A stretch of DNA of 64,000 nucleotides from Bacteroidaceae bacterium (lineage in GTDB: Bacteria; Bacteroidota; Bacteroidia; Bacteroidales; Bacteroidaceae): assembly GCA_017617315.1 (NCBI GenBank), contig JAFZWM010000053.1, forward strand, positions 55,426-119,425, given 5' to 3'. This document shows, one piece after another, positions 24,561 to 52,858 of the stretch (positions are counted from its first letter, which is position 1; every line of letters begins with the position of its first letter). Position numbers and translations under genes: made by a program. The notes below the pieces were generated by a model. It did no database searches, was not told the origin of the DNA, and saw nothing but the letters and a program-made list of their open reading frames with translations.

Positions 24561-24607
24561 AAAAAGTCCGCAATGCAGTTATAAATGCATTGCGGACTTT
24601 TTTTGTA
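24561..24607 (+). terminator. Terminator after the Cof-type phosphatase
   Basis: A long perfect stem, AAAGTCCGCAATGCA with TGCATTGCGGACTTT, around GTTATAAA, followed by T7. Confidence 0.92.
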
Positions 24608-24824
24608 AATGGACTTGTATTTTATTTACAATCAGATTGTTATGCTTTGTGGTTGAAAACTTTCGAGCCGTTTTGGTACATAAATGGAAAACATTTACTA
24701 TCTTTACACAAAATTTAAAATTTGTAAAAAATGACAAAAAGCAGCGGACAACCGCCTGCGAAATAGAGAATTAACATAATAAAGAATATTTTAGCGTTTG
24801 CCGCTATTCTGAAATCATTCCAAA

Positions 24825-25022
24825 GCTTGGCCGCAAAGGAATCAATCACAGAAGAAAAGTTGCGAACGTCTGCGTGTAATAGCGTGGACGTTCCTTGTCT
24901 GTGATTGAGGGTCAGGCCAAGCACCCGGAATGTGGATGAGGAATTGTTCACGTTCCTTTTTTCGGGTGCTTAATGCCAGACCAATAGTGTTTTTAGATTG
25001 AAAGGCAACGCAGTCTAAAAAC
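24825..25022 (+). promoter_or_regulatory. Highly structured leader before the restriction-modification operon
   Basis: Five inverted repeats are visible. P1: GCTTGGCC (24825-24832) with GGCCAAGC (24915-24922). P2, nested: CAATCACAGA (24843-24852) with TCTGTGATTG (24898-24907). P3, nested: GAACGTC (24864-24870) with GACGTTC (24887-24893). P4: AAGCACCCG (24919-24927) with CGGGTGCTT (24963-24971), extended inward by GGAATGTG with CACGTTCC. P5: GTTTTTAGATTG (24989-25000) with CAGTCTAAAAAC (25011-25022), eight bases before the methylase ATG. P1 and P4 share the bases AAGC at 24919-24922 and cannot form together. Possible transcription start from a TATCTTTA at 24699-24706. It may be a cis-acting RNA, a separate small RNA or a mobile-element relic; no family was recognised. 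The region 24608-24824 holds no gene. Confidence 0.55.
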
Positions 25023-25029
25023 AAAAACA

Positions 25030-27006
25030 ATGAAATTATCCGAAATTCTTAAAGGCTCGGAGTATAGCCTTGTGCAGTTTTCTGATGATATAGTTAATGA
25101 GTTGGAGAACCGTATTTTTGAGAAAACATCAGGTAGTAAAACGGCTTATTATGTAGAGTGTCTTGTTCGTGGCAAGGCAATAAAACTAACACCCGAAGAG
25201 TGTGTTAGGCAGATGTTTTTGCTAAAGCTAAACAAAGAATATCTTTATCCGTTCAGCCGAATGGAATTGGAATATGTCGTTTCTTTTGGAAGGGAAAAGA
25301 AGCGTGCCGACATTGTTATTTTCGATAAAGACCAAAAAACATCGCCGTATATTATTGTCGAACTGAAAAGTCCGAAACTAAAAGATGGAAAAGAGCAACT
25401 GAAAAGTTATTGCAACGGAACTGGCGCACCAATCGGCGTGTGGACTAATGGCGAAAGTATTTCGTACTATCACCGCAAAGACCCTAATTTTTTTGAAGAT
25501 ATTCCTACAATTCCAAAGTCAAGCGAGAAGTTGTCTAATATATTGAGTGAGCGTTGGACAATTGAAGATTTGATAGCAAAAGACAAGTTGGTAAATGAGT
25601 GTAAGTCGTTGAAAGATTTGATTCTGGAAATGGAGGACGAAGTTCTGGCAAACGCTGGCGTTGATGTCTTTGAAGAAGTCTTTAAACTGATTTTCATTAA
25701 GTTGTACGACGAAATGGAAAGTGGCAGAAAGAAAGACCGCCATTTGGAGTTTCGCAACTATGGTGATACGGAAACCGAACTCCGGGACAAACTTCAGAAT
25801 CTTTTTAATGAGGCAAAAGAAAAGTGGGCTGGTGTATTTTCCGAAGATGCAAAAATTGTTTTAACCCCATCGCATTTATCGGTATGCGTAAGTTCGTTGC
25901 AAGATGTAAAACTGTTTAATTCAAATCTTGATGTTGTAGATGAAGCCTTTGAGTATCTGATAAACAAAAGTAGCAAAGGCGAAAAGGGACAGTATTTTAC
26001 GCCACGCTATGTAATTGATATGTGCGTCAAAATGCTCAATCCGTCCGAGAATGAAACAATGATTGACACCGCTGCTGGAAGTTGCGGTTTCCCTGTACAC
26101 ACAATTTTTTATGTATGGCAAAAAATATTGGAGAGCAAAGGCTTGAAAAAGAGCCATTTGTTTACATTGGAGGAAAAACCGCAAGAGTGTACGGATTATG
26201 TTAAAAACAATGTCTTTGCCATTGATTTTGACGAGAAAGCGGTGCGTGTGGCGCGTACCCTCAATCTTATTGCCGGCGATGGGCAGACCAACGTAATGCA
26301 CTTGAACACATTGGATTACGAGCGTTGGGAAGATAATACCAATGATGAAATTTGGCAAGAAACATATTTCAATGGATGGTTGAAATTGAAAAAAATGCGT
26401 GCAGAGAAAAACAGCAATCGTGATTTCAAGTTTGACATCTTGATGGCGAATCCGCCATTTGCTGGCGACATAAAGGAAAGCCGAATACTCTCAAAATACG
26501 AACTCAGCAAAAACTCTGCTGGCAAAATGGCATCAAAAGTCGGGCGAGATATTCTTTTCATCGAGCGCAATCTCGATTTTCTGAAGTCTGGCGGAAGAAT
26601 GGCAATCGTCTTGCCACAGGGGCGTTTCAACAATAGTAGCGACAAATACATTCGCGATTACATCGCCGAGCGATGCAGGATTTTGGCGGTGGTTGGTCTT
26701 CACGGTAATGTTTTCAAACCTCACACAGGAACGAAGACAAGTGTACTTTTTGTGCAGAAGTGGGACGATGTGTTGTGTCCTAAGAAGGACGATTATCCAA
26801 TTTTCTTTGCCACAATGCAAGAACCGAGCAAAGACAATTCTGGAGAAAAGATTTTTGTAAAAAAGGAGAACAATGATTTCCTTTTGGATTCGCACGGACA
26901 TCTGATTGTAAAACACGACCTTTTCAATCACGACGGTCTGACAAAGGACGGTATAGCCGAAGCCTTTGCCGAATTTGCTAAAAAAGAGCATCTGAGTTTT
27001 TTTTAG
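25030..27006 (+). CDS. Fused nuclease-methyltransferase subunit of a Type I/IIB-like restriction system
   Basis: 658 residues. The N-terminal 150 residues are an HsdR-type nuclease domain: Asp94 in RADIVIF, Glu111-x-Lys113 in IIVELKSPK, and the HsdR QxxxY motif Gln123-Tyr127 (QLKSY). After a helical region, an N6-adenine methyltransferase follows with motif I at Asp346 (DTAAGSCGF) and catalytic motif IV NPPF at 474-477. No helicase/translocase motifs occur here or in neighbouring genes. Size and order resemble the A subunit of BcgI, where cleavage and methylation are in one chain and specificity in another. Alternatively it is an HsdM variant with an inactive or accessory HsdR-like domain. 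Confidence 0.85.
   Translation: MKLSEILKGSEYSLVQFSDDIVNELENRIFEKTSGSKTAYYVECLVRGKAIKLTPEECVRQMFLLKLNKEYLYPFSRMELEYVVSFGREKKRADIVIFDKDQKTSPYIIVELKSPKLKDGKEQLKSYCNGTGAPIGVWTNGESISYYHRKDPNFFEDIPTIPKSSEKLSNILSERWTIEDLIAKDKLVNECKSLKDLILEMEDEVLANAGVDVFEEVFKLIFIKLYDEMESGRKKDRHLEFRNYGDTETELRDKLQNLFNEAKEKWAGVFSEDAKIVLTPSHLSVCVSSLQDVKLFNSNLDVVDEAFEYLINKSSKGEKGQYFTPRYVIDMCVKMLNPSENETMIDTAAGSCGFPVHTIFYVWQKILESKGLKKSHLFTLEEKPQECTDYVKNNVFAIDFDEKAVRVARTLNLIAGDGQTNVMHLNTLDYERWEDNTNDEIWQETYFNGWLKLKKMRAEKNSNRDFKFDILMANPPFAGDIKESRILSKYELSKNSAGKMASKVGRDILFIERNLDFLKSGGRMAIVLPQGRFNNSSDKYIRDYIAERCRILAVVGLHGNVFKPHTGTKTSVLFVQKWDDVLCPKKDDYPIFFATMQEPSKDNSGEKIFVKKENNDFLLDSHGHLIVKHDLFNHDGLTKDGIAEAFAEFAKKEHLSFF
26997..27004 (+). 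other. T8 homopolymer at the methylase/specificity junction
   Basis: Eight T lie in the last codons of the methylase (Ser-Phe-Phe-stop). The sequence reads T TTT TTT in the methylase frame, the form of a -1 slippery heptamer. A -1 shift, or one extra T, removes the stop and enters the specificity-subunit frame at LDSPFNKERYDELLKG. Confidence 0.6.
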
Positions 27007-27038: not shown

Positions 27039-28415
27039 TTGTTGAAAGGGTTGGAGGTGAGTGAAGTAAATTATTCGGAAACAACAAATAATAAAGACTT
27101 TAGAATTGATAGCCAATTTTACACAAATGTACCAATTAAGAATCCCAATTTACTATATAAGAAAATTGGAGAATTGTTAAAACAAACACAATATGGAATT
27201 TCTATTGAAATGAATGAAGCTAACATTGGTTATCCTATATATCGAATGAATGAAATTCACGATATGTTGTGCGATGTTGAGGTTGGTAAATGTGCTGATA
27301 TTACTCAAGATGAATATTCGCGATTTGCTCTATATAATCGTGATGTTTTATTCAATAGGACAAATTCTTTTGAGTGGGTTGGTAGGACTGGTATGTATTA
27401 TCAAAATGATAATACAAAAAGAACGTTTGCGTCGTATTTGGTAAAACTTGTTCCAAATACAAACGAGATATTGCCGGAATATCTATGTACGTTTCTTAAT
27501 TCTAAATTTGGAGTTTGTGATATTAAACGTAGAGCGCGTCAATCAATAAATCAGACAAATGTAAATCCGGAGGAGGTTAAAGAAATTGAGATTCCAATTT
27601 TAAACATGAAGTTGCAAGAACATATACAAAAGTTATTTGATTTAGCAAATGAAAAAAGGTTGGAATCTAAACGACTTTACACCGCAGCCGAAAAACTTCT
27701 TTTAGACGAACTCGGTTTAAAAGATTGGCATCCAGAAAATCGGAATGTCAATATAAAGACGCTGAAAGATTCTTTTTTGAGTTCGGGACGGTTGGATGCG
27801 GAGTATTATCAAAGCAAGTATGATGAAATTGAGCAAAAATTGATGTTGTCAAATAATGTTGATGTGCTTGGTAATGTGTGTTGGATAAATACAGAAAATG
27901 TTATTCCGCAAACGGGTATATCACATAAATACATAGAATTAGCCAATATAAAACAAAATGGCGAAATATCGGGTTGTACTTTCGATTTAGGAGAAAATCT
28001 ACCAACGCGCGCACGTCAAGTTGTAAAAGAAAATCAAGTAATGGTTTCTTCTGTTGAGGGATCTTTGCAAAGTTGTGCATTGGTTTCCAAAGAATATGAT
28101 GGAGCATTTTGTTCGACTGGTTTTTATGTTGTGAAATCTGATTTGATTAATAGTGAAACACTTCTTGTTTTGTTAAAACTTGAGCCAATACAACAATTAT
28201 TCAAAAAAGTTTGTTCTGGCACGATTTTAACCGCAATGAATATTGAGCAGTTTAGAAATGTATTGTTGCCAATTCCTAACAGAGAAATTCAATCTGAAAT
28301 CTCTTCAAAAATCCAAAAATCCTTTGCCTTGAAAGCCGAAAGCAAACGACTTTTAGAAGAGGCAAAATTGATGGTTGAAAAAGAAATAGAAAAAACTGGA
28401 GAAATATCTGAATAA
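27039..28415 (+). CDS. Specificity (S) subunit of the restriction system
   Basis: 458 residues from a TTG at 27039. Two target-recognition domains are visible (about 10-190 and 245-430), each ending in a helical spacer (LFDLANEKRLESKRLYTAAE and ALKAESKRLLEEAKLMVEK), as in HsdS proteins, so the recognised site should be bipartite. No ATG or GTG exists in frame upstream before the stop at 26979, yet the frame stays open and codes for SPFNKERYDELLKGLE, which looks like genuine HsdS-type N-terminus. Translation may therefore start at TTG or depend on frameshifting from the methylase gene. Base composition is clearly more AT-rich than surrounding genes. Confidence 0.85.
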   Translation: MLKGLEVSEVNYSETTNNKDFRIDSQFYTNVPIKNPNLLYKKIGELLKQTQYGISIEMNEANIGYPIYRMNEIHDMLCDVEVGKCADITQDEYSRFALYNRDVLFNRTNSFEWVGRTGMYYQNDNTKRTFASYLVKLVPNTNEILPEYLCTFLNSKFGVCDIKRRARQSINQTNVNPEEVKEIEIPILNMKLQEHIQKLFDLANEKRLESKRLYTAAEKLLLDELGLKDWHPENRNVNIKTLKDSFLSSGRLDAEYYQSKYDEIEQKLMLSNNVDVLGNVCWINTENVIPQTGISHKYIELANIKQNGEISGCTFDLGENLPTRARQVVKENQVMVSSVEGSLQSCALVSKEYDGAFCSTGFYVVKSDLINSETLLVLLKLEPIQQLFKKVCSGTILTAMNIEQFRNVLLPIPNREIQSEISSKIQKSFALKAESKRLLEEAKLMVEKEIEKTGEISE

Positions 28416-44740: not shown

Positions 44741-44991
44741 CAATAAACAACAATATTGAAGCAGAAAAAACAGCTGCGCTGGGCTAGATCGGGAAACTCA
44801 TCAAATTTTTATGAATAACCGAGACAGCTTCTTCTTCCGATGGCGTGCCGCCCCCTTTCGGGTACACTACGTTAGCGGATTACAAAGGAAGCAGGGCCCT
44901 CAAATCTTGTATTTACTCGGAGATTTCATCACATCACCAGTGCGGCTTTACTATAAGCTATGGTTATGCTTAGCATCGCCATAGCTTTTTT
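44741..44991 (+). ncRNA. ssrS: Structured RNA, probably 6S-type (Bacteroidales-1) RNA
   Basis: There is no coding gene, but there is a dedicated promoter and a perfect terminator (AAGCTATGG at 44955-44963 with CCATAGCTT at 44979-44987, then T5). The body closes with a ten-pair stem, GCTGCGCTGG (44773-44782) with CCAGTGCGGC (44937-44946), around a long rod with further short helices (for example GCTTC near 44823 with GAAGC near 44888). The position after rplT and this long-hairpin form match what I recall for the Bacteroidales-1 motif, regarded as the local 6S RNA that binds RNA polymerase. I cannot run a covariance search, so the family name is inference. Confidence 0.65.
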
Positions 44992-52644: not shown

Positions 52645-52650
52645 CAATGT

Positions 52651-52710
52651 GTTTTTCATAGTATTAGATTTAAGGTTAACAAGGTTGGGTGCAGGCGTGC
52701 ACCCTTTTTT
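52651..52710 (+). ncRNA. Candidate small RNA (about 60 nt) or short attenuated leader
   Basis: A consensus promoter is followed within about 60 bases by an intrinsic terminator: GGGTGCA (52687-52693), loop GGCG, TGCACCC (52698-52704), then T6. No reading frame of note lies inside. The DUF4861 gene starts about 150 bases later with its own TATTTTTG box at 52828-52835, so the unit looks independent. The rest of the gap 52463-52858 holds AT-rich sequence and the promoter of the minus-strand gene. Confidence 0.55.
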
Positions 52711-52858
52711 CGTTTTATGCCCTTGCTGATGCTCAATCTTCTGAAAAACTGACGGAAAATCCTTCGGGCGAATCATTTAAATGACAGATTTTTAGCGCTT
52801 GCCGCGCCGAAAGTCATTTTTTTTGTCTATTTTTGCACCTCAACTGAAAGATTATAAC

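Follow-up and report, generated by a model that had tools for sequence, protein, structure and literature searches.

The stretch upstream of a restriction operon in a Bacteroidaceae genome belongs, judged from its sequence, to a covarying structure family that has no match in Rfam. This family almost certainly represents structured cis-leaders distributed across Bacteroidota. The leader is likely transcribed and, from its pairing pattern, probably works as a transcription terminator/antiterminator switch, i.e. by attenuation. The window, the whole stretch of DNA that was analysed, comprises 64,000 nucleotides; the parts of the element and its operon given below lie on its plus strand.

Positions 24825-25022 (198 nt) yielded a predicted folding energy of -82.8 kcal/mol, compared with -51.5 ± 4.0 kcal/mol for 200 shuffled sequences, none of which folded as well (0/200; z = -7.76). 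All five helices (P1-P5) proposed for this stretch in the first-pass annotation are present in the sequence. The element core spans 175 nt (24792-24966) and starts with a hairpin seen in the fold, P0 (24792-24796/24802-24806), which in the family consensus is followed by a conserved box with (U)AUUC. P1, apparent from both sequence and covariation, pairs GCTTGGCC (24825-24832) with GGCCAAGC (24915-24922) and is lengthened by pairing of the alpha strand CATTCC (24816-24821) with its partner gamma (24927-24932). P2 (24842-24852/24898-24908; 11 perfect pairs) is the arm bearing P3 (24864-24875/24882-24893; 12 pairs). Instead of the P3 5' strand, the P3 3' strand (CGTGGAC, 24883-24889) has delta (GTTCACG, 24946-24952) as an alternative partner. 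A pseudoknot stem between GGGT (24909-24912) and ACCC (24923-24926) spans the P1 3' strand (24915-24922). The fold further contains a terminator hairpin formed by gamma (24927-24939) and delta (24944-24956), with a U-run of six T at 24957-24962. P4 (24919-24930/24960-24971; 11 of 12 pairs) excludes P1, and the previously reported overlap of the two helices by AAGC maps to 24919-24922. P5 (24988-25000/25011-25023) is a hairpin just 5' of the start codon; the 12 pairs attributed to it were found (12 of 13), but its distance to the ATG at 25030 is six bases, not eight. The terminator hairpin, the alpha:gamma helix, the GGGT/ACCC stem and P0 had not been listed.

The promoter-like sequence TATCTTTA (24699-24706), 93 nt upstream of the core, is one base off TAnnTTTG, the Bacteroidota -7 promoter consensus. 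Farther upstream, a strong palindrome with a T-run behind it (24561-24602) is likely the terminator of the preceding HAD hydrolase gene. Elsewhere in the window, an Rfam search located a 6S-like Bacteroidales-1 RNA (44772-44953) and a FopS sRNA (52649-52714).

Downstream of the leader, Pfam and PADLOC assigned a methyltransferase subunit of 658 aa with HSDR_N_2 and N6_Mtase domains (25030-27006) and a specificity subunit (Methylase_S, 27039-28415). The N-terminal position of HSDR_N_2 and the absence of a separate R subunit alongside give a layout that we take to recall BcgI-like enzymes. A DNA-level search of the host genome found a single close copy of the element, and covariance-model searches found six copies of the same form (model R2, see below) and one of a second variant. 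These seven copies precede six restriction-type genes and one gene for an apparently secreted protein.

Of 301 same-family genomes searched initially at the DNA level, ten gave matches, the host included. The genes behind the DNA-matched elements differ and encode a methylase homologue, a ResIII protein, an MmeI-type enzyme, an EcoRI-type methylase and a WYL regulator. A covariance model built from eight of these elements (R1; E ≤ 0.1) matched 191 of 399 same-family genomes; 60 hit regions were retrieved, and a model search over 72 sources in all gave a match in every one (72/72). The second model, R2, was built on those 72 elements and matched 72 of 198 genomes of the order and 14 of 198 of the phylum (E ≤ 0.001; host counted in each). 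We also scanned 84,980 species with a sequence pattern restricted to P0, the UUAUUC box and a portion of P3, which yielded at least 119 stretches. All 80 pattern matches examined carry a full-length R2 match; 79 are named as Bacteroidota (three less familiar names were checked) and one is labelled only as an uncultured bacterium. The pooled set comprised 197 elements with 187 unique sequences.

A search of Rfam 15 (4227 families) gave no match to the element at gathering score and no plausible one at E ≤ 10, and likewise no match at related elements in loci L003-L009; on these searches, membership of a known Rfam family was ruled out. DNA searches of plasmids and of phages did not match the element. 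In viral contigs, seven pattern matches resolved into four strong model matches, one weak one and two without a match. Four viral-labelled contigs (L310, L312, L313 and L314) bear the leader, followed, by eye, by an HSDR_N-type-like protein in L310 and an RteC-like protein in L313. A simple helix descriptor recovered 160 of the 187 known elements, the window's copy being among the 27 missed, and found 11 of 30 regions upstream of EcoRI_methylase genes, one of 30 upstream of recA, and none and two of 30 shuffled sequences. The second variant has longer linkers than the form covered by this descriptor.

The first-pass annotation had proposed a covariance search for compensatory changes; the search bore this out for P1, P2 and P3, and in addition for alpha:gamma and the pseudoknot. 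In a swapped-partner test, each strand was paired with its own partner and with partners taken from other elements, using representatives below 85% identity (57 of 72 in the host family, 44 of 44 in the wider set); an element counted if its own partner was better than the mean of the swaps, a score that is free of column choice. The own partner was better in 57/57 and 44/44 elements for both P1 and alpha:gamma, in 55/57 and 44/44 for P3, and in 49/57 and 40/44 for the alternative pairing P3-3':delta. The gamma:delta pairing scored in 52/57 elements of the host family but in only 24/44 of the wider set. For alpha:beta the counts were 43/57 and 32/44, with about one third of the swaps equally good; for the P4 region with the downstream strand epsilon, 40/57, with 30% of swapped partners equally good. 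The pseudoknot stem b:b' reached 32/57 because its sequence is nearly invariant. No excess over swaps was seen for the control pairings b:gamma, beta:gamma, P1-5':gamma and alpha:epsilon, nor for P3-5':delta.

An alignment of 80 distinct rows fitted to R2 (A5) gave a consistent picture. For the full structure of alpha:gamma, P1, P2, P3 and the pseudoknot, 93.2% of cells were paired; shuffles gave 67.7%, and sliding the structure gave 30-42%. Doubly changed cells numbered 749 versus 236 in shuffles. The R2 structure includes P1, P2 and P3. It leaves out alpha:gamma and b:b', which are hence unfitted in A5, but whose columns were picked by scanning A5 itself, a bias in the opposite direction. 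Changes on both sides were found in 8/8 pairs of P1, 9/9 of P2, 4/8 of P3 and every one of the five pairs of alpha:gamma. The pseudoknot, GGGU/ACCU in the family, has four pairs with 92.1% of cells paired, three of which are changed on both sides. P3-3':delta was paired in 95.7% of cells (93.1% in shuffles), with 15 doubly changed cells against 2.5. The sequences of P3 and of the boxes are strongly conserved in the family consensus. Covariation thus establishes P1, P2, P3, alpha:gamma and the GGGU/ACCU stem as elements of the predicted structure. With 2-3 nt separating b from the P1 3' strand and about none between that strand and b', the pseudoknot geometry would fit a permuted H-type.

In the host family, gamma is common to alpha:gamma, which extends P1, and to the gamma:delta terminator with its U-run, and the two folds are therefore mutually exclusive. 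At least three gamma bases are used in both pairings in 51 of 72 elements. When either pairing was enforced, the energies differed by a median of 0.1 kcal/mol (interquartile range -1.4 to 2.3; 72 elements, not deduplicated), with alpha:gamma the more stable fold in 33 of 72; in the window copy the balance lies about 4 kcal/mol towards the terminator fold. The terminator hairpin has z < -2 in 46/57 elements of the host family versus 12/44 outside it, and U makes up 57% of the last 12 nt in the host family. There, an intrinsic terminator hairpin with a U-run lies between the putative promoter and the gene, as in an attenuator, and alpha:gamma is the conserved pairing that excludes it (57/57; 44/44 in the wider set). 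Outside the host family gamma:delta fails by both measures (24/44; z < -2 in 12/44), and it was rejected as a universal terminator. Since gamma:delta is unsupported there, a terminator would depend on P3-3':delta, since delta also matches the P3 3' strand; the alignment supports this pairing only modestly. A conserved, predicted aptamer-like fold 5' of genes, as expected of a riboswitch, is present; inspection of the leader by eye revealed no conserved short ORF of the kind that a leader-peptide attenuator would have.

A switchable leader before the restriction operon, as the first-pass annotation had proposed, is upheld by covarying exclusive helices, but not in its form of P1 against P4: the counts for the P4 region (40/57; 30% of swaps equal) fall behind those for alpha:gamma/P1 against gamma:delta, and P1/P4 was discarded as the main switch. 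The alpha:beta hairpin was likewise discarded as the main off state, given 43/57 and 32/44 with about one third of swaps as good. In the switch that we propose, transcription would start some 60-120 nt upstream of the core. With the core folded and pseudoknotted, alpha would occupy gamma and the P3 5' strand would occupy the P3 3' strand; delta would be left without a partner, and the polymerase would continue into the operon (ON). With the core open, delta would take gamma or the P3 3' strand and transcription would stop at the U-run (OFF). We infer this ON/OFF assignment by reasoning: the folded core would tie up both candidate partners of delta, from which read-through is expected.

The position of the leader relative to genes is steady. 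In 173 of 187 elements, an ORF on the same strand, at least 70 aa long (40 aa where the locus end truncates it), starts -25 to +260 nt from the element end, at a median of 55 nt. Ten of the 14 exceptions have fewer than 370 bases of locus remaining; the four with room are L173, L175, L177 and L258. TAnnTTTG occurs 60-125 nt 5' of the core, a range fixed after viewing the sequences, in 122 of 182 members, compared with 6.7 expected from shuffles.

First genes were grouped by BLASTP, and 40 proteins from the clusters were scanned with Pfam, unscanned members being assigned by cluster only. Restriction-type clusters account for 79 of the 187 first genes, a number that falls to 69 if the helicase and small clusters are set aside: EcoRI_methylase (31), type III Mod (16), N6_Mtase type I/IIG (14), MmeI (5), SNF2/PLD helicase (5), a small cluster (5), and one each of ResIII, D12 and C5 methylase. 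Four members of the small cluster were scanned; L127 and L137 match MmeI_Mtase just below the cut-off, and L111 and L156 gave no match. By set, the restriction-type share was 46/69 in A3, which is biased because it consists of the best R1 matches, 8/44 in A4, hand-picked from listings, and 25/74 in A5, from the pattern scan. Other first genes encode acyltransferases, DUF6056 cassettes, PAP2, WYL, PKD, SprB, BACON and Fib_succ_major proteins, and many small first-gene proteins look exported by eye. The leader stands before DUF6056/glycosyltransferase cassettes (L089, L101, L113), in which GtrB/GtrA-like genes, named by eye, follow DUF6056, before membrane acyltransferases (L057, L082, L084, L102, L114) and before PAP2 phosphatases (L086, L107, L119, L129). 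Based on one or two Pfam-scanned members each, these three groups look like surface-modifying genes. No single common pathway is evident among the first genes.

In the reciprocal direction, R2 finds the leader at 10 of 30 EcoRI_methylase loci. Many of the remaining loci show, by eye, a second variant of the same architecture (L317, L318, L320, L324, L328, L330, L334, L339, L341, L342 and others). Variant 2 lies mostly before EcoRI-type methylases; it has extra hairpins between P1 and P2, and 3' of the leader a hairpin, TGATTGATAGT...ACTATCAATCA, at the start codon. With a covariance model from eight variant-2 leaders (R3) added to R2, the leader is found at 21 of 30 EcoRI_methylase loci, a count that includes all eight R3 training sequences and some of those of R2. 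R3 matches 52 of 151 same-family genomes, and the 28 first genes behind its best matches comprise 19 of the EcoRI_methylase cluster, two of other clusters and seven of none. RNAalifold, run unaided on variant 2, recovered alpha:gamma and P1, and R3 weakly detects variant-1 copies at full length, which supports a single family.

As a control, 30 recA genes were searched with R2 and R3, and neither model placed a leader upstream of any of them. Two matches in this set are restriction leaders of the host genus, in which one leader and its type I operon lie directly downstream of recA (L368, 2796-2976; L369, 820-994), and R3 gave one weak match on the opposite strand beside a third recA (L357, E 0.007). 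A TypeIII_RM_meth family search returned three loci, none with an R2 or R3 match (0/3). Among 30 homologue loci of the window methylase, searched with 1.5-kb flanks and with some matches beginning inside the gene, 28 lack a model match, including three at 74-79% identity; the two with the leader are the window and G047. The leader is accordingly not tied to this methylase family. The first-pass annotation had regarded leaderless methylase homologues as evidence against it; such loci prevail, but the RNA family itself stands, because the same RNA precedes many other gene families. Of 17 loci without a model match that were checked, eight have a small HTH ORF (XRE/HTH_3-like) right before the restriction gene, the place of a controller protein. 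In L013, L015, L332, L345, L346, L020 and L021 an HTH_3/HTH_26 ORF of 59-83 aa ends 10-123 nt upstream of the matched gene start, and in L017 an HTH ORF of 140 aa lies 130 nt upstream; for L017-L022 the distance was measured to the match start, which is possibly inside the gene. The other nine loci have none or other genes. This distribution suggests that the RNA leader and the HTH regulator may substitute for each other as controllers.

Several other explanations have to be weighed against attenuation. A protein-binding leader or processive antitermination element, whose pseudoknotted core is recognised by a trans-acting protein or by RNA polymerase, which then passes terminators, is possible although we doubt it. 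One factor would in that case govern many accessory operons, as put and EAR elements act by processive antitermination, and the highly diverse downstream genes speak for a general factor and against a pathway metabolite; the strong conservation of P3 and the boxes fits as well. Against this, host-family elements themselves include a terminator that is mutually exclusive with the other fold. Mainly translational control, with the downstream strand and a start-codon hairpin masking the ribosome site and the U-run playing a minor part, could draw on P5-like hairpins, which the window and, by eye, many members have at the start codon, and on the weakness of the terminator outside the host family. 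We nevertheless judge it very unlikely, as the strongest covariation lies upstream and gamma is common to the terminator in the host family.

The upstream promoter motif (122/182) and a 3' end that resembles a terminator in 46/57 host-family elements would also suit a free-standing small RNA that ends at the U-run, acts in trans and is merely adjacent to genes. This is unlikely: rather than being independent of the gene behind it, the element has a same-strand gene start near its end in 173/187 cases (median 55 nt), 10 of the 14 exceptions have fewer than 370 bases of locus left, and no independent function was seen. The remains of a mobile element, raised in the first-pass annotation, would account for nested inverted repeats and for the many unrelated accessory genes downstream of such a relic, e.g. 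of a miniature transposon. The host genome contains one DNA-level copy instead of several near-identical ones, the genes at the model matches differ, members are alike in fold more than in sequence, with compensatory and G-U changes, and orientation and distance to the gene are steady. We rejected a mobile origin on the single copy and the differing gene contexts and regard it as extremely improbable.

The attenuation switch that we favour resembles riboswitches and attenuators, e.g. the preQ1 riboswitch classes, which are pseudoknotted, in having a structured covarying leader, a pseudoknot and an alternative terminator pairing. It differs from them in being without an Rfam match or known ligand, and its genes are restriction systems and genes for surface or secreted proteins instead of one metabolic pathway. 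With put and EAR, which are processive antitermination RNAs, and with the JUMPstart/ops element, it has in common that a single class of element precedes operons for surface polysaccharides and other accessory functions; in contrast, it has no sequence in common with them and no Rfam match, and it has its own mutually exclusive terminator pairing.

The accessible text of two reviews of restriction-modification control describes protein controllers, promoter methylation, antisense RNA and start-site hairpins (PMC3874152, PMC12707154). In EcoRI and Eco29kI, according to the same text, antisense RNA from reverse promoters inside the genes exerts control (PMC3874152, PMC12707154). This is likewise RNA-based regulation of restriction-modification, but by antisense transcripts, whereas the element here would be a sense-strand leader common to unrelated systems. 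C (controller) proteins, which regulate type II systems (PMC12707154, accessible text), are comparable in their position just before restriction genes, where candidate small HTH ORFs occur at 8 of 17 leaderless loci; they are protein controllers, unlike the putative RNA described here. By word search of the accessible text, 'riboswitch' is absent from both reviews (PMC3874152, PMC12707154), and attenuation and antitermination are absent from the 2025 review, the 2013 review having one 'attenuat' passage. A description of the family was not found in the accessible literature searched, supplementary tables of large RNA surveys aside, nor by word search in the accessible text of PMC8040213, PMC2864571, PMC10994844, PMC7366714, PMC11109978, PMC8632094, PMC6429828, PMC3874152 and PMC12707154. 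As PMC8040213, in its accessible text, gives thousands of candidate structured RNAs, an unnamed entry for the family may exist there.

We tentatively put forward, as a conjecture more open to doubt than the switch itself, that the family is a phylum-wide RNA controller: a near-bistable, pseudoknotted leader before unrelated restriction-modification and surface genes that would replace protein controllers and switch DNA defence and surface coat together on one common signal. With the competing strands named and the compensating pairs mapped, the switch is directly testable, and natural comparisons are offered by restriction loci that have the leader and by others that lack it, in some of which an HTH regulator takes its place. 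A structured leader common to systems of types I, II and III would mean a further layer in their control and would hint at one signal by which Bacteroidota set both defence and surface genes.
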